IMG/VR virus record: IMGVR_UViG_3300021963_000194 | Location: 1-49,026 of that record | Reading direction: 5' to 3' (one strand) | Length of the DNA stretch: 49,026 nucleotides | Source of the DNA: a virus | In this document: piece after piece, positions 1 to 30,303 of the stretch | Numbering within the stretch: the stretch's first letter is position 1 | Layout of the letters: every line of letters begins with the position of its first letter | Position numbers and translations under genes: made by a program | The notes under the pieces: generated by a model | What the model was told of the DNA's origin: nothing | What the model saw: the letters and a program-made list of their open reading frames with translations, nothing else | The model's database searches: none

Positions 1-123
1 CCTAGCAGATAAACTGGCACTAGGCCACATAGGTATCTGTATACCAGAAGGAGTTGTAACCATCGGACCTAATAGACCACTTCCTTGTCTATTAGCTTCT
101 GAGATAATTTCTTTAAATTTCAT
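1..123 (-). CDS. Partial hypothetical protein, N-terminal 41 residues
   Basis: An open frame runs from an ATG at 123 to the window edge without a stop; only the N-terminus is visible. It begins MKFKEIISEANRQGSG and continues with a proline/glycine-containing stretch. I do not recognise the family. The start is supported by position rather than by a ribosome site: no clear Shine-Dalgarno sequence precedes it, but a late-type promoter core lies 21-28 bases upstream, as it does before other late genes in the window. This suggests a late gene, possibly virion-related. That is inference from the promoter only. Confidence 0.6.
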   Translation of the reverse strand, partial: MKFKEIISEANRQGSGLLGPMVTTPSGIQIPMWPSASLSAR

Positions 124-143
124 AAGATCATTGAATAATAATC

Positions 144-151
144 TATTTATT
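144..151 (-). promoter_or_regulatory. Candidate T4-type late promoter (AATAAATA)
   Basis: The minus strand reads AATAAATA, one base from the T4 late core TATAAATA. It lies between a terminator-like hairpin and the ATG at 123, giving a predicted leader of about 14 bases. The same core and spacing precede late genes elsewhere in this window. In AT-rich DNA the motif can occur by chance; the position between terminator and start is the main support. Confidence 0.5.
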
Positions 152-172
152 AAAAGTGAGCTAGAGCTCACT
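151..172 (-). terminator. Rho-independent terminator-like hairpin
   Basis: On the minus strand AGTGAGC and GCTCACT form a perfect 7-bp stem around TCTA, followed directly by TTTT. It would end transcripts coming through the GIY-YIG gene and the non-coding region before the late promoter at 144-151. A weaker stem (GCATT/AATGC at 175-195) lies just before it in the direction of transcription. Confidence 0.55.
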
Positions 173-250
173 TGCATTTCGCTACGCTCAATGCTTTTTT
201 CTAGAAGTAATTGTGCGAAGCACTTAATATATTATCCAGATCGTTCAGTC

Positions 251-280
251 ACACTTTGCCCAGGCCGGGCAAAGAAGTGT
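251..280. repeat. Strong inverted repeat in the non-coding region
   Basis: TTTGCCC pairs with GGGCAAA around the loop AGGCC. The stem continues with ACAC/GTGT after a three-base bulge (GAA). It is the most stable-looking hairpin in the gap and folds on either strand. Confidence 0.6.
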
Positions 281-451
281 ACATTATCCGAGTCGAACAT
301 GTGTCACCTAGCGTTACTGCATTACAGTGGCGGTCGTCCGGTACCACGAGCAGAGTCTTTATTACGACGGCGGTCTACTTGCATACGCTAACATGCCAGT
401 AAACGTGGGTTTTTCTCCCTCATTTCGCCTATTATTCTAAAACAACCAAAC

Positions 452-466
452 AGCAAGGGCTTTGCT
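452..466. repeat. Short inverted repeat in the non-coding region
   Basis: AGCAA and TTGCT form a perfect 5-bp stem around a five-base loop. It is one of several local hairpins in the 173-586 gap. Confidence 0.45.
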
Positions 467-586
467 ATCCTCATCCTTTCGGGTAGTGGTTGAGTACTCT
501 GGCGGCTAGAGATTTCCGTCCCTCTTATTATCGAGTTGGCGTGGGCACACGACTTTAGCTTGTGCTTGCTTATACCGCTTATGAGC

Positions 587-1012
587 CTATGATTTTAATA
601 TATGTGAGCCATGTACACGGACTGAGATCTGTCCGTTATAGTAATCTTTTGATTCTAGAACTTTGTGTGTAAATTGTTCTCTGGCCTCTATGTAAGAACA
701 TTCTGCTTTACTTTTACAGTAAAACATTATCTCTCGTTTGAAATTTTCTTTGCCTAGTGTCTCTATGTCTTTGCTTAATTCTATATTCGAACCGTAATAA
801 TCTCTCCAATCGGAGTCAATTTTGCTTCGAATTTTCTTTTTCTTTTTACTTCCGTTTTTTAATTTTACTGTTTTATATGTTGTTTTACTAAATTTGGCTA
901 ATTTTTTGCCTATATATTTTCTGCCTGTGGTAAGATTTGTAATTAGATATACAAACCCAACGCAATCTTCGGGCAGCGATTCAACGATTTCATTTTGGAA
1001 GTACCATGTCAT
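587..1012 (-). CDS. GIY-YIG family nuclease
   Basis: 141 residues. The N-terminal half has the GIY-YIG core in variant form, GFVY at 19-22 and KYIGKK at 32-37, followed by a lysine-rich insertion at about 47-64. The second half carries a candidate catalytic glutamate (E109 in YIEAREQ) and asparagine (N126 in YYNG). GIY-YIG nucleases cut one DNA strand per site using a metal ion. Close relatives occur as resident genes in marine T4-like phages, so a mobile homing role is possible but not shown: the gene sits 5 bp behind its neighbour in a normal operon and nothing looks interrupted. It is the last protein gene of the gp55-gp47-gp46 operon. The ribosome site is weak, so translation may be coupled to the preceding gene. 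Confidence 0.8.
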   Translation of the reverse strand: MTWYFQNEIVESLPEDCVGFVYLITNLTTGRKYIGKKLAKFSKTTYKTVKLKNGSKKKKKIRSKIDSDWRDYYGSNIELSKDIETLGKENFKREIMFYCKSKAECSYIEAREQFTHKVLESKDYYNGQISVRVHGSHILKS

Positions 1013-1017
1013 GGCAC

Positions 1018-1272
1018 TTAGTTATCATTGCTGCCTTCCGTCTTCTGCCTCTTTTGAGCCTGTCTTCTTGCTTCTTTTTCTGCTAGTTCTGCCTCTTTAA
1101 TCCTTGCCCACTCACGTACAATTACACGCTGATCTGAGCATAGTTCTCTAATTCTACTTAGACTTTGCCGTAGTTGTATAGAAGACCGTTTGGTCCTTTC
1201 TACTTCCCACTTTTGGTTTGCTTCGAAATAAGTTCGAAACGCACTCATTATATCATCATGCTTGCTGCTCAT
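1018..1272 (-). CDS. Small charged protein, function unknown
   Basis: 84 residues, rich in arginine, lysine and glutamate and predicted mostly helical, with an extended charged tail (about 59-84). It contains FRTYFEANQKWEVERTK near residue 12. Similar short basic proteins are common in marine T4-like phages and are sometimes labelled histone-like; I recognise the type but cannot assign a function. Its start overlaps the end of gp46 by 17 bp, so the two are probably translationally coupled. Its place between a recombination nuclease subunit and a GIY-YIG nuclease suggests a DNA-related role, which is inference only. Confidence 0.7.
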   Translation of the reverse strand: MSSKHDDIMSAFRTYFEANQKWEVERTKRSSIQLRQSLSRIRELCSDQRVIVREWARIKEAELAEKEARRQAQKRQKTEGSNDN

Positions 1273-3046
1273 CTAATACTTCAAGGTCGTTATCATAACT
1301 AGTAAACCCGTTTTCTTTAATTACTTTAAGAACGTTGTTTACTCTACCAATTAATTCATCTTTGTGACTGATCAAATATATGTTTTTGTTGCGTTCACGT
1401 GCCATTTTCTTTAGTACAGCCAATGCACTTTCAACGCCACTGGCATCTAAACCGTTGTCAATAAGCTCATCAATAAACAACAAATTAATATTTTGATATA
1501 GACTTTCCCATACATCACGGAAACTCCAGCTTAGTCCTAGAATCAAACGATTACGTTCACCGCGTGACAAGTTGTCAAAGTCTAAATCTTGTCCAAGCTG
1601 TGTAATTTCTACAGTAAGATCATTTAGGAATGTTACAGTGTGCGGTAGTCCCATTTTGTCAAGATAGTAAGTCAGCCTATTGTTTAAGTAGGCCAAATTC
1701 TGATCAATAATTTTTTTACGGATAAAACTGTCTTTGCTGGTCAGCAATTTTAACAGAAATTCTTGATGCTCTTTAAGATCATTCAAATCATTTACCTTAT
1801 CCCAACTAATTTCTTGTAGAGCAGTTTCACTTAGTTCATCAATTTGCTCTTGATAAGGATCTTGATCTGATTCTCTAGCAGTTATCTGTTGTTCGAGATT
1901 TTGAATTGTATTTCTATGATTGATAGCATCTTCTTCACGACTGTAAAACACTGTAGGTTGAACACCTAGTTCTCCTAGAGCATTAAGCGCATCTGTATTC
2001 TCCATCCACTGACCGTTAGTGGCCAACGCCTGTAGTGCTGCTTCTCGCAATGCTGTTTGCTTTTCTGCTAGCACTTGCTCGTGCTTTGCATCATGCATGT
2101 CTTGACCGCAGGCATAGCATTTATGATTTTCTAATTCTGCAATCTCTTTCTTTAATTTTTCAATTTGTTTAGTTTCTTTTGCTTCGTCTGCAACACAGCG
2201 AGCAATAAGTTTGTTAAGTTCGTCAATGGCTTTACGCTTTTGATTATACTCAGTTAAGTCTTTATGCGCTTGTAGTTCTGCAATAATATCTAATTGATTT
2301 AATTCAGACCACTGTAGAGCTAGAGCCTCAACATCTTCCTGGCGTTTCTTCAACCACATGTCTTGTCTGCGTTTTAATCCTGCAATACCTTCTTCAATTT
2401 TTTCGTTGGCTTTTTTTGTAGCTTCTATCTGAGCAGTTTCTTGAATTATATCGTCTTTAGTGATGCGAATAAGTTCTTTAAGAGCTTCTGCCTTCTCTGA
2501 AAGTAGAGTAATGCCCAGTAACTGTTCAATAATTTCACGCTGTTCTCCCGCCTTCATAGATAAAAACGGTTCTGTATAGGTGTTTAATGCAACAACGTGT
2601 TTGAACATGTCGTGGCTCATGCCTAGGATATCATCAAGATCCTTTTGTGTTTCTCGCATGTCGCCCTGTGCATCATCTGTTTCTTCGTTGGCCTGTTCTT
2701 GATCGTTGACAAAAAATCTTAGAACATTGGGCTTGCGGCCACGTTCAATACGATATTCTTGTCCGTCTTTTTCAAATGTCAGCGTGACCAACATATTTTT
2801 AACGTTGATCTTATTGATCAAGTTATCTTTTTTGATGTTAGTTAACGCTTGACCAAAGAGTGCAAAGCTCAAAGCATTGATAATTGTAGTTTTACCTGTA
2901 CCGTTGCGGCTTCCGCTGTCGTCTCCACCCTGATCTAAGTTCTCACCTAGTACAAGAGTCATCTGTTCTCGACAAAAGTTCACTGCTTGAGTCTGGTTAC
3001 CCACACTCATAAAGTTCTTTACGGTTAAATCTTTAATGCGAATCAT
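1256..3046 (-). CDS. 46: gp46 recombination nuclease subunit (Rad50/SbcC-like ATPase)
   Basis: 596 residues, near the usual gp46 length. It has the full split ABC-ATPase: Walker A GSRNGTGKTT at 45-54, a long coiled-coil middle (about 180-440) interrupted by a zinc-hook CYAC at 310-313, the ABC signature LSRGE at 493-497, Walker B NLLFIDEL at 521-528, and a histidine switch ISHKDE at 559-564. With gp47 it forms the Mre11/Rad50-like complex that resects DNA ends. In T4 this feeds recombination-dependent replication and late-phase DNA processing, and helps degrade host DNA. It overlaps gp47 by four bases (ATGA) and the following small gene by 17 bp, so all lie on one transcript. No key residue appears missing. 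Confidence 0.96.
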   Translation of the reverse strand: MIRIKDLTVKNFMSVGNQTQAVNFCREQMTLVLGENLDQGGDDSGSRNGTGKTTIINALSFALFGQALTNIKKDNLINKINVKNMLVTLTFEKDGQEYRIERGRKPNVLRFFVNDQEQANEETDDAQGDMRETQKDLDDILGMSHDMFKHVVALNTYTEPFLSMKAGEQREIIEQLLGITLLSEKAEALKELIRITKDDIIQETAQIEATKKANEKIEEGIAGLKRRQDMWLKKRQEDVEALALQWSELNQLDIIAELQAHKDLTEYNQKRKAIDELNKLIARCVADEAKETKQIEKLKKEIAELENHKCYACGQDMHDAKHEQVLAEKQTALREAALQALATNGQWMENTDALNALGELGVQPTVFYSREEDAINHRNTIQNLEQQITARESDQDPYQEQIDELSETALQEISWDKVNDLNDLKEHQEFLLKLLTSKDSFIRKKIIDQNLAYLNNRLTYYLDKMGLPHTVTFLNDLTVEITQLGQDLDFDNLSRGERNRLILGLSWSFRDVWESLYQNINLLFIDELIDNGLDASGVESALAVLKKMARERNKNIYLISHKDELIGRVNNVLKVIKENGFTSYDNDLEVLDEQQA

Positions 3047-14205: not shown

Positions 14206-17200
14206 ATGAGTAACAATCAATCAGAAAACCCAGTTCCAATCTCAGGAAACAGAAAAAGAAAAAATTCTGAACTATTACCTAGATATTATAGAACTGATTC
14301 TAACAAAAAATTCATCCAAGCAACCATTGACCAGCTCACACAGCCTGGCGCCGTTAAAAAATTAACAGGATTTATTGGCAGACGAAATGCCAAGTCGTCT
14401 ACTACTAATGATATTTTTATTGAAGCTGCTAATATACAACGTCAAAATTATCAATTAGAACCTAGCATGGTTTCAAAAGACACACTTGACAATGTAAATT
14501 TTTATAAAGATTACATCGATTATATAAATCAACTAAGCGTATTTGGAGCCGATGTATCTAATCATGAGCGTCTTAATAGACAAGAATTGTATTCGTGGAA
14601 TCCACATATTGATTGGGATAAGTTTGTCAACTTTCAACAATACTATTGGCTACCATACGGTCCTCCAGTTATTAATGTCTACGGGCTTCAACAAAAAATT
14701 GAAAGTACATATACTGTAAACATCGACGATGCAGGTGGATATAAAGAATACATACTCACACCAAATGGATTGAATAGGAATCCAGCAGTAAAACTCTACA
14801 GAGGTCAGACTTACCATTTTGAAATAAACAGTCCTGGAGAACCTTTTAGTATTAAAACAGAACGTTCTGCTGGAGTAGATAATAGATATAACTGGGGTAA
14901 TGACACTGTTTATGCAGTTGAATCTGGGACTCTAACTTTTAAAGTTCCTGAAAAAGCTCCTAATGTTCTTTATTATGTCAGTGAAAATGATCCTAATTTA
15001 GGAGGAATTTTTAAAATATACGACATTAAAGAAAACACTGCCATTGATGTTGAAAATGAAATTGTAGGCAAAAAAACTTTTAAACTAGCTGATGGAACAA
15101 AATTAAGCAACGGAATGAAGTTACGATTCAAAGGTAACGTTACTCCTGAACAGTATAAGACTGGACTCTATTATGTTGAAGGTGTTGGAAAGAAAATACA
15201 ACTAATTTTAGAAAATGATCTAGAACTTATTAGTACCACTACAGATAGTTTTGAAGTACCGTTTGATGATTCGCCTTTTGATCAACAGTCTTTTGATATT
15301 GCAACAACCTTTAGTACATCTAAAGATTATATTGTGGTCAATAGAGGAAGCAAAGATAGAAATCCATGGGCAAGAAATAACAGATGGTATCATAAAAATG
15401 TTATAGAAACAAGCTATGCCGTCAACGGACAAATAGCAAGTTTAGATCAAGATGCTCGTGCTGTTCGTCCAATTATTGAATTTGAAGCAGGAATAAAATT
15501 ATATAATTTTGGATTAGAAGCTACAGTTGATGTTGATCTTATAGATACTTTCACGACAGATGTATTTTCGAATGTTGAAGGACAACCTGGATATGTAGTC
15601 GATGGCATTAATCTAGCTCAAGGCCAACGAGTATTATTTTTAGCAGATACTGATATTCTTGTAAAAAACAAAATTTATAGAGTAGAATTTATTAGAGTAA
15701 CACCTCCTGGTGAATCATTACAACGCCAGATACATCTAGTAGAAGACTCTACTCCAATAGAAAACCAATCCGTATTAATTAAGTACGGGGTTCAAAATCA
15801 AGGAATGACCTATTATTATAATGGTTCTACTTGGGTCAAAGGACAACAAAAAACAAGTGTTAATCAACCTCCTTTATTTGATGTAGTTGACGAAAATGGT
15901 TATAGCTATGGCGATATTACAATCTATGATGGTACAAGTTTCACCGGAACAAAACTGTTTTCATACAAAATTGGTAAGGGTACTAACGATAGCAAATTAG
16001 GATTTCCTTTATCATATAAGAATATTAATAATATTGGTGATATTGTTTTTAATTTTAATTTATTAAGTGACACGTTTGTCTATAAACGAGTAATTGATGT
16101 TAAAACACAGTCGATCTCTGTTGGAAAATTAGTTAAATTTGACAGTCTAACTGACATTTCTTATGTGTCGGGCTGGGAACGTAGTAGCGTTACTCGCTAT
16201 CAACCTATTGTAAGAATTTATAGGGATCCTGAAAAAACAAATAATTTTGATATTGACGTCTACGATAATATTAATGATCTTGTTGACCTTGAAGTTCGTG
16301 TTTATATTAACGGCAAGAGATTAGATCAAAAATATTGGGAAATAAAAGATGGTATTAGATTCAAATATGTTTATTTTAAAATAGACAGCATAAATGCTGC
16401 AGGTATTAATTATCAAACAACTGATGTTATAACATTAAAAACTTTTGCAGCACAAGCTAAAAATTCAAATGGATATTATGAATTACCAGTTAATCTTCAA
16501 AATAATCCAATGAATGAAAATCCTCTTGAATTTACATTAGGAGAAGTAATCGATCATGTAGATTCAATTATAGATAATTTAGATACATTTGACGGAGAGT
16601 ATCTTGGTGCTAGCAATCTAAGAGATCTAGGAAATGTCAGTCCTTACGGCACAAGATTTGTACAGCATGAAGGTGCATTACCTTTAGCCTTGTACCATCT
16701 TACAAATAAATCAAATAACATTATCAAAGCTCTAGAACAAGCAAGAGATGATTATGGTTCATTTAAAAGAACATTTATAAATTTAGCAGAAAATTTAGGA
16801 ATTGATGCAGACACAGTAGAATTTGTTGATTTAATTCTAAATGAAATTAATAAAAATAAACCTAAAACATCATCATATTATTTTAGTGATATGATTCCTA
16901 ACGGCTCAGCAACAACCACAAAAATAACTGTAGTTGATTATAGAACAAAAACTTATCCGTTAACAAATTCTTTTAATTTAAATGAACTGTCTTCAAAAGC
17001 AGTTTTAGTTTATATTAATAATAATCAAATTTTACATGAAATTGATTATACATTTAATCCTGACGGGTTTATTGTGTTAACCGACCGTGCAGAAGTATCT
17101 AACGATGACATCATCACCATAGTAGAATATGAAAGTACTGATGGTAGTTTTGTGCCAGCAACACCAACAAAATTAGGAATGTGGCCAAAATTTGAACCTA

Positions 17201-20200
17201 AGAAATATCTTGATAACAGTTTCCTAACACCTAGATATGTTATTCAAGGCCACGACGGCAGTGTAGTTCTAGCATATGAAGATTATAGAGATGACCTTCT
17301 TTTAGAATTAGAAAAAAGAATTTTTAATAACATTAAAGTGTCTTACAATCCTGATATTTTTGATGTTAATGAACTTATACCTCGTTACAGTCAAAATAAC
17401 GACTATTCTTTAGACGAATTTAATAAAATACTAGCCCCTTCTTTTTATCAATGGACTAGTTTGATTAATAGGGATTTTACAAAACCTTTATCTTATGATC
17501 AATATAATAGTCTGACTTTTAATTATAGAGGACTACCCGCTCCTGATGGCAGACCTTTGCCTGGATACTGGAGAGGCATTTATCGCTGGATGTACGATAC
17601 AGACCGTCCTAACATCTGTCCTTGGGAAATGTTAGGATTTAGTGTAATGCCATATTGGTGGATTGATCAATATGGTGCAGCACCCTATACTTCAGACAAT
17701 AAAGTTATGTGGCAAGATATTTCTGAAGGTATTATTAAAGTTCCAGGTCAACCAATTTATAGAAATCCTAAATATGTTAAACCTTATCTGATGGACCATT
17801 TACCTGTTGATCAAGATGGTAAAATTGTTAGCCCTGCAGAAAATACTTTAACCAGTGGAGTTATAACTGAAATAACAGGCCAAGATTTTATTTTTGGTGA
17901 TGTTAGTCCTGTTGAAAGTGCATGGCGTAGAAGTGCATACTATCCTTTTAGTGTAATTTCTACACTAATATTGATGTATCCTGCTAGAACAATAGGCTTA
18001 TTATTTGATCGTTCTAGAATTTATCGCGATGCATCCGATCAAATTGTTTATAAAGAAACAAAATTAAGACTTCGTTTGAAAGATATTGTAACACCTAGCA
18101 TTTATACTGATACTCAGCGAGTGCAGACTGCAGGACTTGTGAATTATGTTGTTGACTATATTCAACACGATAATCAAAAATCTCTTAACGAATACAAGTA
18201 TGATCTATTTTATAGCTCAATGCAGTTATCATATCGTGTAAGCGGATTCACAGAAAAAGAAAGATTTAATTTATTATTAGATTCTAAGAGTCCCACAGCA
18301 ATTGGAGGAATTTATGTACCTCAAGAAAATTATTCAGTAATTTTAAATTCTTCTAGTCCTATTAAAAAATTAGTTTATAGTGGTGTTATAGTAACACGAT
18401 TGTCTACAGGATATGAAGTAAAAGGCTATAGTAAATCTAGTCCTTATTTTTATTATTATGGATGGACAGCTCCTGGCTATAGTATAAATGTAGGAGGTAT
18501 AAGTGAATCGTTTGTTGAATGGTCACCAAATCAATTATATCCTAGTGGTAAAACAGTCAAGTATGGTACTAGGTATTATAAAGTTAAAGCGACTCATACC
18601 TCTAGCAATACCTTTGATTTATCTTATTACATGACATTAAACGGTTTACCGATTAATGGTGGTAGGGATGCCTTTATTAGAACTGCATGGGATAGAACTG
18701 AGCCTATTACTGTAGCCTATGGAACAAAATTTAAAACAATTCAAGAAGTAGTAGACTTTTTAGTAGGCTATGGAGAATATCTAAAAGATCAAGGATTTGT
18801 TTTTGACGATTTTAATAATAATTTAGGTGAAGTTACTAATTGGGTAACCAGTGCAAAAGAATTTTTGTTCTGGACTACACAAAATTGGTCAACTGGCGAA
18901 GACAAATGGAAAGATTGGTTACCGAGTGATAGTTACCAAGTGGGAGAAATTGTAAAGTTTAATGGAGATTATTACAAGGCCGATGTATTTGTAGAGCCTG
19001 GAGATATATTTGTAGAAAATGATTGGACGAAATTAGACGGTTTATCAACCGTAGGTGCGAGTGTGTTGGCAGTTAGTCCGTCTGCTAATGTTATAACTAT
19101 CTCTTCTGAATTATCAGTTGTTGACGATATAAAAGATCAATTTAATGTATACGAATTTTTTAAAGTTGACGGCACTAAAATAGATGAAGACTTAATAAAT
19201 TCTTATAGAGAAGACAATGAATTTTCATATTCTACAACTTCTGATGGAATATACGGAGCAGTATTTTATTTTGTACAAAAAGAACATATTTTATTATTAG
19301 ATAATAAAACTCTATTCAATGATACTTTATATGATCCAACTACAGGTTATAGGCAAGAAAAAATAAAAGTCTTGGGTTATGTATCAACAGGTTGGAACGG
19401 CGGATTTAATGTTCCCGGTTTTATATATGATCAAGCGGTAATAAAAGATTGGGAACCATGGATAGATTATAATCTAGGAGACACTGTAAAGTACAAAGAA
19501 TTTTATTATAGTGCAGCCGGTAAATTAGTTGGAACATCAGAGTTTATTAGCAATGAATGGATTAAGTTACCTAATAAACCAACTTCAAGATTATTACCTA
19601 ACTGGTCGTATAAAGCTGAACAGTTTACTGATTTTTATAGCCTAGACAGTGACAACTTTGACCTAGGGCAACAAAAAATTGCTCAACATTTAATTGGTTA
19701 TCAAAAGAGACAATATCTTGAAAATATTATAAAAGATGATATTAGCGAGTATAAATTTTATCAAGGTATGATTATAGAAAAAGGCACTCAAAATGTTTTG
19801 AATAAACTGTTTGATGTGTTAAGTGCTGACGATCGAGAAAGTCTAACCTTTTTTGAAGAGTGGGCAATCAGAGTAGGCCAATACGGTTCGATTAATGCAT
19901 TTGAAGAAATAGAATTTGAACTAGACGAAAGTCTGTTTAAAAATAATCCTCAGGCTATTGAACTAGTTAATACTGTAGATCCTGGTTTAGTAGATTTTGT
20001 TATTAGACAAACACCTAATGATATCTACTTAAAACCTTTAGCATACAATTCAAATCCTTGGCCTGTTAATAATAATTTTAGTCCTTATTTAAGAACACCT
20101 GGATATGTCAGAGCAGACGAAGTAGCTGCTAATGTAGATACACTGGCAGATCTGTTATCTTATGATATTACTAAGTTTACTGTGGGCGATTATGTATGGA

Positions 20201-23200
20201 CTACTTTTGAGTTACCACCAACCTACTGGAACATTTATAGGATCACTGACACTGGAAGCAGTGTAAGTTTATTGGAATATGAAGAAACAACACTTTCAAT
20301 AACAGTTGACACTGTGAATTATTTAGAAGTAGGCGACTACTTAGGACTCACTGGCATTGACAAGGTTCAAGGATTCTATAAGATTGATAATATTGACGGA
20401 ACTCTTATTACAGTCACTGCAACTATCGACAATTTTCCACAGTCTATAACTTATGAAGATATTTCTTTGTATTATTTTGACAGTCAAAAAATTGAAAATA
20501 TTGATGACATAGATTTAGAACTTCCTAAAAAAATCAAAGACAAAGAGTTGCTATGGGTAAACAACAACGGAAAAAATAAATGGTCTGTCTATGAATATAA
20601 CACAGTCTATTCTTACACCAATATTCCTAACAAGTACCCTTCATCAGATCTAAAATTTGGAAATGAATTAGCAATTGATTCTTTAGCATCTACTCTTGTA
20701 GTGTCGACAAATAAAGACAGTGTGATAATTTATGATCGTTTTGGATATAGTGCTCCTTGGTCAAGAAGTCAGACACTTAATCTTACATTTAATTTTACTG
20801 ATGCAGATATTGCATTCTGGCATGACACTTCTGCTGGATCATTTGGAAAAACTGTAGCTATATCTAAAGATAAAAACTGGCTAGCAGTTGGTTCTCCTTT
20901 GTCATCTAATGTATTATCTTTAGTAGGAGAATACAAAGCATCGCCTGACATTATAAAATCATCTATCTTATGGCAAATTGGAAGATCGGCAGACGATAAT
21001 CGTTATGTAAGATCAAAACAAGTAGATGATTATACTGTACACTATTATAAAACAGTGCCTCATGTTGTGGCCACAGTTGTTTCTACAGATAGTGCTTCTG
21101 CAAAAATAACATTGACAAATACTGCAGGTATGAAAGTCGGAATGCCAGTTGTGTTTGATGGTAATGCTTTTGGAAATATTGTATCAAATGTAGGGCCATA
21201 TTATGTTAAATCAATTGATATAGACGGTTATAGAATTACTATTAGCAAAACTGCTAATATCTATGCTAGTAATGTAGAAGCAAGTGTAGGTACTGCCTTG
21301 GCACTATCTACTGCAAAATTTAATTCTTCTTATCAAGGATTTTATCAAACAAATATTACCTATGTACTTAATGATATCGTTATGTACGACCATATACTGT
21401 ATAAATGTACAACTACATCTTCTACACAAGGTGATTTTATTTTAGCTGAATGGGTAGAGTATTCTATACCTTCTAGCACATTAACTGCCACAGTTGGAAA
21501 TTTAACCACTAATGCTACAGCTACATCTCCTCAAATTGACGGGGTTGATAGGGGGTATATAACTGTTGATACAACCAAAGGTATGGTTGTAGGAATGAAA
21601 GTTAGATTCATTGGTTCTGTATTTGGAGGACTATCTACTGCTCAAAACTATTATGTAAAGTCTATTAAAAACAATACAGTATTTACAGTAAGTGAAACTT
21701 TAGTAACATCGCCGACAGTTGATATAACTGGAGTAGCAGGCAATACTTGGGGTATTCCTAATAATCCAGGCGATCCATATGAAATGATAGAAGCAACTGG
21801 AAAAGTGACAGTATTGTTAAACAGTGCTTTCTCTTCAATAGTTCCGGAACATACAACTAGTACAGGATATAACTCAACAGCCTATAAGATGTATGGTAAT
21901 AATTCATTACAGTATATAGGTAAAACTAGTAACCTAACTAACCAAGGGATGGTATGTTTATACAATCGTAAATCATCAAATCAATATGATTTATACAGGG
22001 TTATATTATCTTCTAGTGCAACAGATAATGAAAAATTTGGATCAACTGTTGAATTTGCAGATGATAATAAACTTTTTATCTCAACACAGTCTGCAGACTT
22101 TTCTGCAAAACTATACCAATATGATTATACTATTGTAGATGATATCTTACAATGGAACACAGGAAATCTAGTAACTTCATCAGTCGCTGGCACGTATTTT
22201 GGCAAGACAATTAAAGCATCAAATGACGGCTCTACTATAGCAGTCACCTCATATGGTACTAACAGTGTTACGGTCTTAGGGAGTAACGGTCTAGTTATTG
22301 ATACAATTAATCCCGGAGTCACTAGTGCAGATTATAGTTTATCTGTTTCTAAAGACGGCACTTACATTGCTATAGGTAATAGAACCACTAATACCAATCA
22401 AGGTAATGTAAAAATTTATAAACTATCCGGCGCAGAATACATACTGTATCAAACAATTACTAGCAGATTACCAGAAGGATCTGAAGGATACGGAACTCAA
22501 GTATCGTTTATGAACAATGACGAAACACTTGTAATTTCTAGCGCCAACGGAGACAGCATAAAAGATGATGGTTCAATCGTAACTGATTCTGGAAGAATTG
22601 ATGTTTATGACAGATACTCAACCAAATGGGTTTTTGCAGAAAATTTAAAAACTGAAAATGTCGACGGAGATGACTATGGTTTACATTTAGTTGCCGCTAA
22701 TAATATTATTATCGCCAGCGCTATAAATGCAGTAGATGCTACATATACCTCAGGTAAATTATATTCTTATACCAAATCACCAAATACATATTCATGGTCT
22801 GCATTACGTACAGAAGCTGATAAAATTGACATTAACAAAATTAAACAAATATTTTTGTATAATAAAAAGACACAACAGTTAGTTTCTTACTTAGATATTA
22901 TTGATCCTATACAAGGAAAAATTGCAGGTATTGCAGATCAAGAAATTAAGTACAAAACATATTATGATCCTGCAATTTATACAGTAGGAACCGAAACGTT
23001 AAATGTTGATAACGGACAAGCCTGGACATCTTCTAATGTTGGTACTCTATGGTGGAACATGTCTAAAGCTAAGTTTTTAGACAGTTATAACGGTGATAGT
23101 GTATATAAGAATTCTACTTGGAATACATTGTATGAAACAGCTAGTATAGACATATACGAATGGGTATCATCTAGTCTGTTACCTGAAGATTGGGATGCTA

Positions 23201-26200
23201 TCGCAGATACTATAGAAGGGTTTACTGCTAATATAAGTGGTACAAGTTTATATGGAAATTCTGCTTACAGCATTAAACAGACATATGATACTGTTTCTAA
23301 GAGTTTTAGAAATACTTACTACTTCTGGGTAAAAAATAAAACTATAATACCAGAAGTTAAAGGAAGAAAACTATCTGCAAAGGATGTAGCAGACCTTATA
23401 GCCGATCCTAAAAATTATGGTTACAAATACATTGCGTTCACAGGAACTAATACGTTTAGTTTAGTAAATGTTGCAAACTTGTTAGAGCATACTGATGTAA
23501 ATCTTTACATTGAATACTGGACCATTGATGACACTGACATTAATAGTCATCATCAATGGAAGTTAATTAGTAATGATACAAATACAAATTTACCTATTAC
23601 TATTGAGCGTAAACTTATTGATAGCCTTTGTGGAAAAGACAGTAAAGGTAGACGAGTACCCGATGTAACACTACCACCTAAACTTAGATATGGTGTTGAA
23701 AATCGTCCTCGTCAAAGTATGTTTATTAATAGATACGAGGCATTAAAACAATATATTGAACGTGTAAATTCTTCACTACTTAAACATATTATAGTCGAAG
23801 AAAAAGATATTACATCTCTTAACAGTTTTGAAAAAGAACCTTCAACAATTCTTGGACAATATGATGTAGTAGTAGACTATGATACAGAATTAAGAACTAT
23901 TGGTATTACTGCTGTTAGGTATCCATCATTAACACCTATAATTGTCGACGGCAGAATAATAGACATTATTGTAAATAATCCTGGATCAGGATATGTTTAT
24001 GCACCTTATATTGACGTTGCTGGTTCTGGAATAAATGCAAAAATTAAAACTATTTTAAATGTTACAGGGGGAATATCCGGAGTTGTAATAGAAAATTCTG
24101 GTGAAGGTTACACCGAAGATACGACTGTATTAACTCTAAGACCGTTCTCTGCACTAGTACATTTTGATTCACAAGCACTTGATAGATGGAGCATCTATTC
24201 TTATGATTCAACAAGTTTAACATGGTCACGTGTAAAGAGTCAAAGTTATGATGTAAGACAATACTGGAATACTGTAGATTACTATAAAACAGGATATAGT
24301 CAATTCACACCTGCAAATTTCTCTCTAAATTCTGTTTATGAATTAGCCACAGTTAATATAGAGATTGGACAAATAGTTAAAATTAAAAACGTTGGTTCAG
24401 GCGGATGGTTATTATTAGAAAAATATGCAAATAGTACCAGTGCTGATTATACACAATCTTACAAAGTAGTTGGTAGAGAAAAAGGTACAATACAATTCTC
24501 TAGTAACTTATATAATTTTAGAAATAGTGGTATAGGTTATGATGGCCCCTCATTCGACGGAGACGGATATGATAATGCAGCAGAAGTTGAATTAAGAATT
24601 ATATTAGACAGCATTAAAAATGATATTCTTATAGATAATTTAAAACAAGATTATCTTGATGCATTTTTTGCGTGTTTAAGATATGCTTATAACGAACAAC
24701 AATATATTGACTGGGCTTTTAAAACAAGTTTTATTAAAGCTCAACACAATGTAGGAAGTTTAAAAGAAAAAGTTACATACAACAATGATAACTTATCTGA
24801 TTTTGAATCTTACATCAGTGAAGTAAAACCTTATAGAACAAAGATTAGAGAATTTATTAGTTCTTATACTAAAATTGATTCAGCCAAATCAGTTGTCACT
24901 GATTTTGATTTACCTCCGATATATGAAGATGGTAGATTTACAACAGTACCAGTGACAATAGTAGATAACCAAGTATTCAGCGAATCTGCACTTATTGAAG
25001 ATTATCCTTGGAAAAATTGGACTGATAATGTAGGTTTCCAAGTTACTGAAATTATCATTAACGATGGTGGATCTGGTTATATCAGCACTCCTACAGTGAT
25101 AATAGAAAGTAATAGCGGCACAGGAGCTACTGCTAGGGCATACTTAACAAATGGAAAAGTTGCAAGAATATCTTTGATTACTAACGGTAGCGGCTACTTA
25201 ACAGTGCCGACAGTTGTGTTCCAAGGAGGATTAGATTCTAATGGTGTAAGCGCAAGTGCAAGTGCTAGAATTGGTAGTAGTCTTGTAAGATCAAATTATA
25301 CTAGAATTAAATTTGACAGAGTTACTAGTCAATATTATATTACTGAACTGCAAGAAATTGAATCAGGCGAAACAGATTCTAAATTTATTGGAACAGGCAG
25401 TAAGACACAATTTATATTAAAATGGAGTCCTAGCATTAAACTAGCCGATTCAGAAGTTTTAATTGACGGAGTAGCAGCTCTTAGAAATTCTTACATACTT
25501 AGTAGCAAAAAAACTACAACTAGGGGATATACAAGTTACTATGGATTGTTAACATTCTTAACAGCACCAGCAAAAGGAGCTGTTATTAAAATTACCTACT
25601 TGAAAGATTATAATTATCTATCAGCTGCTGATAGAATTAATTGGTATTACAATCCTGGAACTAAAGAATTTGGTAAGCAACTAGGACAACTGATGCGCGG
25701 AGTTGACTACGGTGGTGTTCAAATTACTGGTTTAGGATTTAACATTGCACAAGGTTGGGGTAGTACTCCTTGGTTCTCAGACGGATGGGATTCACAAGAT
25801 CCTAATTTTGATGATTATATTATAACAGTTGGTGCTAATAGTAAACAGATTAATACAAACGCTATTCAAACATATAGTTATGGAAATGTAATTGAATTAA
25901 CTAATACAACTAACATTGAAGCAGGAAGACTATTAGAGTTTACAGGTTCTTCAATTGGAGGAATTGATGCAGGTAGTATCTACTATTGTGTATCTGTAAC
26001 ACCTAATAATCCTATTGCAATAAATTCTATAGGTAGAATAGGTACTAGTAAAATTACTTCTTTTAGAAGATTAGGGCTTGAAGATATTGCAGTAATTACA
26101 ACTGATAGACCTCACCGATTGTCATCTGGACAGTTAATTTCGATTGAGGGTATTGACTTGCCTGGATTTGATCAAGGAACGGTTGAAATTTATGCAGTAA

Positions 26201-29200
26201 GGGATGAATATGAATTTACGTATGTCAACCCTGGTGATGAAGTTATATTAACAGTTTCGTCTAGTCCTACTGTAACAGTTACAGGTTCAACATTCCCAAC
26301 CGGACCTTCAGAATTTACTGGAACAATCAATGACGGCATAACAACAAATCCTGGAAATGTATTAACTGTAACAGGGGTTGCATCGGGTACTCTTGCTATA
26401 GGACAAATTGTTTATGGTGCCGGAATACCAGATGGTACTTATATTCTTAGCTTTGGAACTGGTACTGGCGGCCTAGGTACTTACATATTGAATACTGATT
26501 CATTTGCAGTTACTAGCCAAACGATAAATTCTACAGCAGTAGTAACATTTTCATTTGCTGCCCTAGGAGTACCGATGGCTCAAGGATATAAATTTTTAGT
26601 CAGCGGCAACGGAAATGAAAACTACAACGGAGAATATGTAGGAACTGTTAGAACTTTATCAACTATTTGTCTAGCCTATCCTGAAGATCCTGGTATTTTT
26701 GGCATAGGGGATACAATAATTGAACCGTCGGGATTTGTGTCAGCATTAGTTCCAACAGTAACAGTTAAAACTAAAACACCTCATACTCTTGTCACAGGGA
26801 CAAAAGTTAATATTAATCCAGGAGTAGGACATAATGAGTACACTGAAAACAATGCAATTATAACAGTAATTGACAGTGATGAGTTTACTTACACAAGTCC
26901 AGGACTTTCATCTGAAACAGAGTTTCTTGCAAACGGTATAGTGACAGCAGTTTCTTCAATAACTGTCAGCAATGAAATAGCAGGATCTCTTGTAACTGTG
27001 ACAGATGATACAGGTTCTATGACAGTAAAAAATAAAACTTATCCGGTAGAACTTCCGTACACTCCTGAACAAGATGAACAAATTAATGTTTATTATAGAG
27101 CAGTGAACAATACACGCTATGTAAGAATAGATGATCCGTTTTATGTAGGTCAAGTTATTTTTACTAAACCAGATGTTGTAATGCAGACATTTATCGGCGA
27201 CGGAGAAACTAAGTCTATTGGTATACCAAATACTCTAACTGTACATTCTGGAGATAACTTTATTTTTAGAAAAATATACAGTGATGGATCTATTCGACCT
27301 CAAGAAAATGATTTTGATACTGAGCTAGTAGGCGGCGATTTAGCCTATAGCACTGCTACTGGTATCAGAGCAGATGATATAATTGTCGACGGTGATGATC
27401 TTATATCTCAAACAAATAGCGAAGGACCAGAAGAGTTTGTACCAGGACAAGTAACAGATGCCCTTGCAGTTAAAGTTTATACTAGACCAACTGATGGTTC
27501 TGCTAAAATGCTAGTTAAAAATTATGTGTATGATGGAATTAGAACAGTATACAATATTGGGCAAACACCAAACAGTCCAGATGCTGTAATTGTAAAACTA
27601 TCTACTCCTGATAGAGTGCTGGTGTCTAACGTAGATTATACAGTAGACTATCCTAACAAGACAGTGGTTTTAGATGCTGATGCAATTGGTATGATTGGCG
27701 GAGAAACGATAAGCATCATTAGTGCAGGTTTTAACGGATCTAACTTATTAGATATTGATTCCTTTGTAGCAGACGGCTCAACGAGTGAATTTATAACAAA
27801 AGCACCGTGGTCAAACACTCTTACATCATTAGTTTATGTAGATGGACAAGTGTTAGATTATGTGTTATTTAAAACTAATAGCAGTTATGAATCTGCTAAT
27901 GTAGTAGGTATTAGATTTGGATTAAATCTAACTGCCGGATCTGTTTTAAATTATGTTATTACATCAAGCAGCGAACAATCATACAGCGTAATGCAAAATG
28001 AAACGTTTGAAACAGACGGTATTGTCCAGTCATATCAATTAGTCAACAGGGTTGGAACATCTTCTCCGTTAGCTTCTAATATGCTAGTTATATCTGATAC
28101 AGGAACTGTATACCTACCGCCTATCAATGAATATTTTACCATTGATACAAAAGTAACTTACAAAATTCCAAAATCTAAAGTACAACCATTTAGTGTTACA
28201 GTTACTAGAGTAACTGCTTACATTGATGGGGTCGAACTAGATAAATTAACTGAATATTCTGTTTCTTTAGCAGGTGTTTCAGTTACTCTTAAAAAGTCTG
28301 TTCGTTCTGCTAATATTGGTAAACAGTTGACTATTAGTGTAGTTTATGAAAATAGTTACACCTGTGATGGTAATCTTATTCTTTTTGATACTGTGCCTGA
28401 TGCTGGACAAACTATTAGCGTTGTCAGTTTCTATAAACATGAAATTTTAGATATAAAACAAACATCTAGAACAGTAAGTTCCAATGTAACATTTCAACCT
28501 GAAGATTTAGAAATTTTTGATTATCTAAGTATATACGGGAATAATATTAAATTACCCCGTCCAGTAATTGACAGTAGTTATGTATGGTTAGTTAAAAACG
28601 GTAAATTGCTACGTCCTAATATTGATTATAAATTAAATTTAGATTTAACGTCTGTTTATCTAAATGAAGATCCTATAACTGACGATAAATTTGCTATAAT
28701 GACCTTTAGTAATAATATTGTTATTGATAGTTTTGCTTTCATGCAGTTCAAAGATATGTTAAATCGTGTCCATTATAAGAGACTGTTAGAGTCTAAACAA
28801 ACTACACTAGCAGCTGATCTTCATTGGAATGATATGACTATAACAGTGGATAGAGGATCAGTACTATCAAATCCGAACCCTTCAAAGAGATTGCCGGGTA
28901 TAATTGAAATTTTTGGCGAACGTATTGAATACTATAAGCGAGAAGGAAATACTCTAAGTCAACTTAGAAGAGGAACATTAGGTACAGGAGTTAGAGAAGT
29001 GTATCTAGCCGGAACACTAGTCCAAGATATTGGCAAAACTGAAACTATTCCATACAAGGATATAACTTATACTGAACAGTACACTGCTCTAGCAACATGG
29101 AAGTCTAATTTAAATTATCAAGTAGATGATGTTGTTAGTTACAATGGATACAGGTATGTATGTTCTACGGTTCATACTAGTGAAGCATCATTTGATTCTA

Positions 29201-30303
29201 CTAAGTGGACAAACACAGGATCAGATCTAGTTTACTCTTTTAGAGTTACTCCAACATTAGATACTACAACAGTAGGATTGAATAATTCTTGGTATAGAAA
29301 AACCACATTGGTTACTAAAACTGCACAAGAAGTTGAAGTAGGCAATTACTATGTCATTACAAAATTAGGAACAAGTGATTTTAGAATAATAGGTGCTTCG
29401 TTAAATGAAGTAGGTGTTAAATTTAAAGCCACTATGAGTGATATTCCTGCAGGCAATTTTGTGGCAGGAAATCAATATAAAATTTTAACAATTGGTCTTA
29501 CAAATTGGGTAGATGTTGGCGCAGCCAGCACAGCAGTAGTAGAAGGATCAATAGCTAACCTTACTCTTACAGTTGATACTGTTACTAGTGGTGAATTATC
29601 AGTTGGTACTTATATTACAGGAGAAGGAATTGTTCAAGGGACATATATTGTAGATTTTGTATCCGGTACTGGTGGTGAAGGAACATATACTGTTAATTTT
29701 AATCAAACAGTTGCAACTACTACAATCACAGGACAGCCAACCGTCGGAACAGTATTTACAGCCACAGATATCGGCCGCGGCGACGGTGTTGCTCAATGGA
29801 TGAAAGGCACGATTGGCACTGGAACTGTAAATTTAATCACATATCAAAGTGTTCCTAGCACCTACGGCCAAGCAAACGATATAGAAATGTTTGTTGGCGG
29901 ATATGATATAGAAGGCGAATGGATAACCAAATTAAGTTATAATGTTGGAGATATTGTAGTTGTAGGTAGCTATACTTACAAATGTAATACAGCACACGTT
30001 AGCAGCACTTCTTTTATAGATGATATTGATTATTGGGATTATTTTACAGGTCATATTAGGCTAAGCAAAATTCCTTATCAAGTACATAATGTGAGAAATC
30101 ATTATGAAAGTCCTGAAGGAGATGTGCGGTTTGAGGCTGAATTTAGTGTAGACGGCGAAAATAGTGCAGTTCGTTTAACAAACAGGCTAACAGAAGGAAC
30201 TAAGATTACTTTAGTTAAACGCACAGGCACATTCTGGGCAGATTTAGGTGCTAGTTTAGCTCATTCTAATAACCCTATTGCTAAGTTCATACGAGACAAA
30301 TAA
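14206..30303 (+). CDS. Giant modular virion protein, 5,365 residues
   Basis: One uninterrupted frame of 16.1 kb follows gp6 in the place of gp7/gp8. The N-terminal 1,450 residues have the look of large baseplate proteins of marine T4-like phages ([19 protein letters not shown] near 145; [19 protein letters not shown] near 1119; a [13 protein letters not shown] stretch near 1237). Then come modules: six CBM5/12-like segments (about 1436, 1566, 1746, 2379, 4965, 5236), an FG-GAP/beta-propeller-like region (about 2150-2845), [12 protein letters not shown]-type repeats (about 3250-3310 and 3610-3690), and two copies of a GTYI/GTGGxGTY module (about 4050-4110 and 5120-5180). I infer a baseplate or peripheral tail component that contacts the cell surface. 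CGGAG precedes the ATG. No gp7, gp8, gp9 or gp10 gene is recognisable nearby. Confidence 0.85.

Follow-up and report, generated by a model that had tools for sequence, protein, structure and literature searches.

Polynucleobacter-1 appears to be the first third of a large pseudoknotted RNA of T4-like aquatic phages

A gene-free gap in a gene-dense phage genome

Why does a phage genome in which genes are otherwise closely packed keep some 400 nucleotides free of them? The DNA analyzed here (the window) is a 49,026-bp virus record from IMG/VR. An initial annotation, made from the sequence, had noted a gene-free gap of about 410 bp, and this agrees with the gene list, in which the gap is 409 bp (positions 178 to 586) and the next largest is 92 bp. 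The G+C content of positions 241 to 420, put at about 51%, was counted at 51.1% compared to 35.0% for the whole window, and no other 180-nt stretch of the window is as rich in G+C. The genes of the window are T4-like and include gp46, gp47, a late sigma factor, and a SegE-type GIY-YIG nuclease; a single 5365-aa open reading frame (14206 to 30303, plus strand) lies in the structural gene region of this T4-like phage. The gap is, as had been described, downstream of a recombination operon, with gp47, gp46, and the SegE-like gene preceding it. The gene that follows lies on the same strand as the RNA described below.

587 to 1012, minus strand: SegE-type GIY-YIG endonuclease gene (PF19835, 115.7 bits), directly upstream of the RNA
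1256 to 3046, minus strand: gp46 (SbcC-like) of the recombination operon (phrog_77, E value 7.5e-101)
1 to 123, minus strand: start of the next gene, from its open reading frame compared with the downstream sequence of relatives; the ATG at 123 is the likelier start, and the alternative ATG at 177 falls within the RNA tail
144 to 152, minus strand: T4-late-promoter-like box TAATAAATA for the next gene, from sequence

No credible gene had been seen in the gap, and its small plus-strand open reading frames indeed lack any Pfam family. Two of these (131 to 391 and 211 to 402) were rejected as protein coding, having no Pfam match and an opposite strand that evolves by compensating base changes. 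ARAGORN found neither a tRNA nor a tmRNA in the gap, nor any elsewhere in the window. The strong inverted repeats that had been reported are present as hairpins, but plain folding of the two strands was no better than that of shuffled sequence (z = -0.57 and -0.68, no excess stability); pseudoknotting of much of the fold is the probable reason. Thus, hairpins alone are insufficient to make the case for an RNA.

Rfam match and extent of the RNA

A search against Rfam identified RF01718 (Polynucleobacter-1) on the minus strand at 570 to 440. The match covers model positions 1 to 141 of 141 and exceeds the gathering threshold; no other Rfam family was detected in positions 1 to 1000 of the window at E values up to 5. 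The initial annotation had read the gap as a structured phage RNA that fits no family. The structured RNA is borne out by covariation (see below), but the statement on families is wrong for the 5' third and right only for the 3' part, which is outside all Rfam models.

Almost certainly, the gap contains a minus-strand RNA gene that runs from about 588 to 150. Its 5' end is near 588 to 578 and its 3' end is at the terminator, for a length of roughly 430 nt. The terminator-like hairpin that had been placed at the end of the block is present at 154 to 173, but the left end of the block, drawn at 173, was set too short, and the RNA therefore extends slightly beyond it.

150 to 588, minus strand: whole RNA gene, the block conserved in relatives from the stop codon of the upstream nuclease gene to the terminator hairpin; ends approximate
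440 to 570, minus strand: Rfam RF01718 part (80.9 bits, gathering threshold 37, E value 2.2e-17)
303 to 406, minus strand: 3' pseudoknot domain, not in Rfam; its own covariance model, R1, scores 110.5 bits in the window
152 to 173, minus strand: terminator-like hairpin (173 to 154) and short U run, from sequence

Copies of the RNA in relatives have the Rfam part followed by a well-conserved second half beyond the Rfam model. As judged from these sequences, RF01718 is only the first third of the molecule; the model is without the 5' strand of helix P1 and the whole 3' half (pseudoknot domain, repeats, and tail). Polynucleobacter-1 was listed in 2010 by Weinberg et al. as a probable RNA that is probably cis-acting (RNA "y", cis "y", switch "?"), with Burkholderiales and fresh water or estuary given as its sources (PMC2864571). 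In contrast to that description, the RNA found here is a phage RNA with a terminator and is not evidently the leader of the next gene. What Rfam holds as 141 positions, once considered probably cis-regulatory, is now part of a 430-nt, multi-pseudoknot RNA of large aquatic phages.

Compensating base changes and pseudoknots

Relatives were collected from IMG/VR as relatives of gp46 and by pattern scans of viral contigs, and 52 sequences were re-aligned out of a larger first alignment (alignment A1). The structure has 81 pairs in 16 helices, with 93.9% of cells paired in the 52 sequences. Compensating changes among relatives, which had been named as the check on an RNA, were found in abundance: 60 of the 81 pairs changed on both sides, as high a number as was reached in 0 of 500 shuffles, and there were 565 double-changed cells versus 154 in shuffled alignments and 61 to 92 when partners were slid. 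The sequences whose covariation gave the structure overlap with, and are largely the same as, those counted here, which favors the structure in these counts, but the margin is large. These results strongly support a structured phage RNA.

502 to 578, minus strand: helix P1, 578-574 with 506-502; P1 and the helix crossing it are 98.1% and 96.5% paired, each with double-sided changes in 4 of 5 pairs
545 to 570, minus strand: hairpin P2, 565-561 with 549-545; 5 of 5 pairs changed on both sides
443 to 492, minus strand: helix P3, 492-487 with 448-443; 100% of cells paired; encloses hairpins 482-475 and 469-449
375 to 402, minus strand: hairpin H7, 402-393 with 384-375; 10 of 10 pairs changed on both sides
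308 to 391, minus strand: 7-bp pseudoknot of the H7 loop UUAGCGU (391-385) with 314-308; 7 of 7 pairs with double-sided changes, 99.4% paired
317 to 368, minus strand: crossed helices P8 (368-364/337-333), P9 (353-350/320-317), and P10 (347-343/331-327), from covariation; 98.5, 90.4, and 100% paired, with double changes in 3, 4, and 2 pairs
254 to 274, minus strand: hairpin CUUUGCCC-GGCCU-GGGCAAAG between the repeats, from sequence; helix 16, 79.1% paired and loosely aligned
213 to 223, minus strand: tail hairpin GUGCUUCGCAC; a similar hairpin is at the same place in most relatives
174 to 194, minus strand: tail hairpin GCAUUGAGCGUAGCGAAAUGC; a similar hairpin is found in relatives

Crossing helices form at least four pseudoknots. 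P1 (578-574/506-502) crosses 513-508/500-496. The Rfam model does not include the 5' strand of P1, and the 3' strand of P1 is in the loop of the crossed helix. P2 (565-561/549-545) is crossed by a 3-bp pairing (570-568/559-557) in which two of three pairs have double-sided changes, giving a small pseudoknot. H7 (402-393/384-375) crosses 391-385/314-308, and P8 (368-364/337-333) crosses both P9 (353-350/320-317) and P10 (347-343/331-327). Inside P3, helix 469-464/454-449 is paired in 99.7% of cells.

A sequence resembling AGGC(N)AAA is present at 588-575 and 433-420 (minus strand), positions that correspond to the 5' start and to the stretch before the GGG/CCC hairpin; it recurs in many relatives with this type of RNA (type A).

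Distribution among large phages

The carriers of the RNA are a family of large T4-like aquatic phages in which it is common. Where a gp46 locus extends far enough downstream, R1 nearly always finds a match. Of 16 large viral contigs (71 to 356 kb), 15 have a single match each, and the sixteenth (L274) carries the second RNA type described below. An assembly chimera, which would have undone the annotation's reading, is ruled out because the identical slot holds the block in more than 100 contigs.

Among the named phages in INPHARED, none matched the window block or either RNA type at the DNA level, and neither RF01718 nor R1 was found in the stretches fetched from the nearest gp46 relatives there (PA5oct, Phosso, and Atu_ph07). 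A pattern scan of bacterial genomes gave one match, in a 4.5-kb phage-like contig (L204) of a Bacteroidetes metagenome-assembled genome; given how strict the pattern was, the lack of other bacterial matches carries little weight. This contig has the 3' part of the RNA beside phage structural genes and is probably a misbinned phage contig. Six further contigs (L007, L015, L017, L030, L045, and L072) terminate within segE or shortly behind it, at the expected start of the RNA, perhaps as a result of assembly breaks at sequence shared between co-occurring phages.

A second RNA in the same slot

Three loci (L041, L058, and L066) have no type A match and instead have another conserved block after segE, which ends in the same kind of 3' module. 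This type B RNA was found by pattern scan in at least 120 stretches of viral contigs.

L041, 4360 to 5000; L058, 3270 to 3950; L066, 6280 to 6900; and loci from L205 on: type B RNA, conserved block behind segE

Its conserved blocks are AAGGTTGGCGGGCCAG, AGGAACGAAGC, and GTCGACGTAGGTTGGGAAAGGTCAGAGCCC. Type B has its own covarying helices and is mostly different from type A, the 3' module being common to both. An Rfam search of type B in 11 loci gave no match; this sister RNA has no Rfam entry. AGGCAAA is also found at the start of the type B RNA.

A 7-nt motif whose two copies change together

The 3' module in the window contains GGAUAAU twice, at 289-283 and 237-231.

281 to 295, minus strand: repeat copy 1, CGACUC-GGAUAAU-GU, from identity covariation with copy 2
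229 to 243, minus strand: repeat copy 2, CGAUCU-GGAUAAU-AU, from identity covariation with copy 1

In the first alignment, three column pairs varied yet were identical to each other in 69 of 69 sequences. The scans used patterns that allow the copies to vary independently, with part of the type B copies coming from a fixed-motif scan, and the two copies were identical in 296 of 297 pairs representing 17 versions, with one dissimilar match (CCATAAG/GTATAAC) set aside as chance. When the motif was left out in building a type A tree, about 52 changes were counted for each copy, always jointly with the other, a count that errors in the tree can inflate. On supported branches, independent pairs agreed in 16/16, 9/9, 6/6, and 4/4 cases. 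Distant copies obey the identity rule by eye with other motifs, such as AGUCAAG in L183 and GAGAAA in L145. Simple gene conversion between the copies was rejected, as the flanks stay different (ACUC/AUCU and G/A).

Because the two copies always change together, some common reader of both is probable. No complement of the motif was found at a consistent place within 700 nt, which removes a pairing partner in cis; the alignment contains no third column that covaries with the motif; and the motif is enriched neither elsewhere in the window nor near the loci of relatives, so that a promoter-like reading of the repeats was also discarded. These findings point to a partner in trans or to direct contact between the two copies, which may occur. 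The lock-step of the element could reflect two identical docking sites for a fast-changing partner or a contact of like strand with like. It is possible, though somewhat doubtful, that a single superfamily of large phage RNAs, so far undescribed, unites types A and B; its mark would be the shared 3' module with the lock-step 7-nt element, and the lock-step would reflect a recognition mode that is not known from other RNAs.

SegE was rejected as the reader, since none of its residues tracks the motif (largest phi, 0.47). A small basic protein is encoded between gp46 and segE (1018 to 1272, minus strand) and has counterparts in L041, L058, L066, and L089. It has no Pfam or PHROG match, and one of its residues weakly tracks motif position 0 (phi, 0.60; n = 59); it is a candidate RNA- or DNA-binding partner.

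Possible function of the RNA

We lean toward the view that large T4-like phages make the block as a separate, terminated noncoding RNA of about 430 nt, which serves as a docking scaffold acting in trans. Action in trans, rather than control of the neighboring gene, is probable; docking at two sites is a tentative mechanism. The RNA would be transcribed with or behind the gp47-gp46-segE genes and would fold into a compact scaffold that displays both motifs as identical docking strands. A single partner, be it a protein dimer, two protein copies, or two copies of an RNA, would bind both strands. We infer the exposure of the strands, the partner in trans, and the abundance of the RNA, which the annotation had also suggested. 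The duplicated motif offers a concrete handle, predicting that matched double mutants work and single mutants fail, and could be used as bait for the partner.

To our knowledge, few large phage RNAs of such a kind are known. The functions of GOLLD and ROOL are poorly understood, and their hallmark is an RNA-only homo-oligomer (cage). GOLLD is a large pseudoknotted phage RNA, as is the RNA described here, and has a conserved 3' part and a more variable 5' part; ROOL is likewise a large, ornate phage RNA with multiple pseudoknots and is tied to no known protein (PMC12286853). However, neither gave a covariance-model match (for GOLLD, in positions 1 to 1000 of the window to an E value of 5). In addition, GOLLD is often near tRNA genes, whereas there are none in the window and 38 related loci, which also sets the RNA apart from ROOL; it is about half as long as GOLLD and shorter than ROOL. 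GOLLD and ROOL are thus the nearest analogues in kind, and by matches and tRNA context the RNA is a member of neither. It is most likely a stable noncoding RNA of the phage, similar in kind to GOLLD and ROOL and bearing two identical docking strands; in the infected cell it would serve as a scaffold or decoy, much as has been suggested in broad terms for those two RNAs.

The RNA starts at the segE stop codon or within it, the 5' strand of P1 overlapping or adjoining this codon, and no promoter was identified for the RNA; it could therefore be processed from the mRNA or be a piece of its 3' untranslated region. With a terminator at the RNA end, this would also suit a structured 3' untranslated region that only stabilizes or terminates the recombination-operon mRNA. 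This seems rather unlikely, because stability would need far less than 400 nt with several pseudoknots, unvarying loops, and repeats that change in concert, and the RNA is also found behind unrelated genes (L089, L145, and L186).

The RNA mostly starts 10 to 30 nt after segE, whether the pair adjoins gp46 or is kilobases away (nhmmer and tblastn), and in almost every locus a nuclease-like gene, mostly segE, precedes it. A structured guide RNA following a nuclease gene has a precedent in the reRNA of IS607 TnpB (RAGATH-18) (PMC11061315), and SegE might use, or be controlled by, the RNA in a ribonucleoprotein as TnpB does with reRNA or IscB with omegaRNA. Such a role is unlikely. Unlike in the TnpB and IscB systems, the adjacent gene is of the SegE_GIY-YIG type and exchangeable: in L089 and L145, a gene for a different protein (a putative PD-(D/E)XK-type nuclease, from its sequence) takes its place, and in L186 an unrelated gene precedes the RNA, with segE 1.8 kb away. 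Moreover, there is no variable guide segment, the 3' end being the conserved tail and terminator, and SegE residues do not track the motif.

A riboswitch-like leader of the downstream gene, which is how Polynucleobacter-1 was originally classified (PMC2864571), is quite unlikely. In its favor, the window and 46 of 147 type A loci have a same-strand gene as the sole downstream neighbor. However, the RNA in relatives is followed by conserved tail hairpins, a terminator-like stem, and then either a T4-late-like box with a gene or a convergent gene, which counts against a leader. A stem of at least 7 bp was found 40 to 240 nt after motif copy 2 in 144 of the 147 loci, and the box precedes 32 of the 46 same-strand genes. 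In another 34 of 147 the sole neighbor is convergent, so that the RNA cannot be the leader of the next gene there.

It is very unlikely that the block acts as DNA, for instance as a replication origin that carries iteron-like repeats and is primed by its own transcript. In favor of this, a single initiator binding direct repeats would make them change jointly, the position is beside recombination genes, and T4 origins are reported to use R-loops (PMC3016281). Against it, there are only two repeats, the motif is unenriched elsewhere, and RNA base pairs are kept by compensating changes over most of the length.
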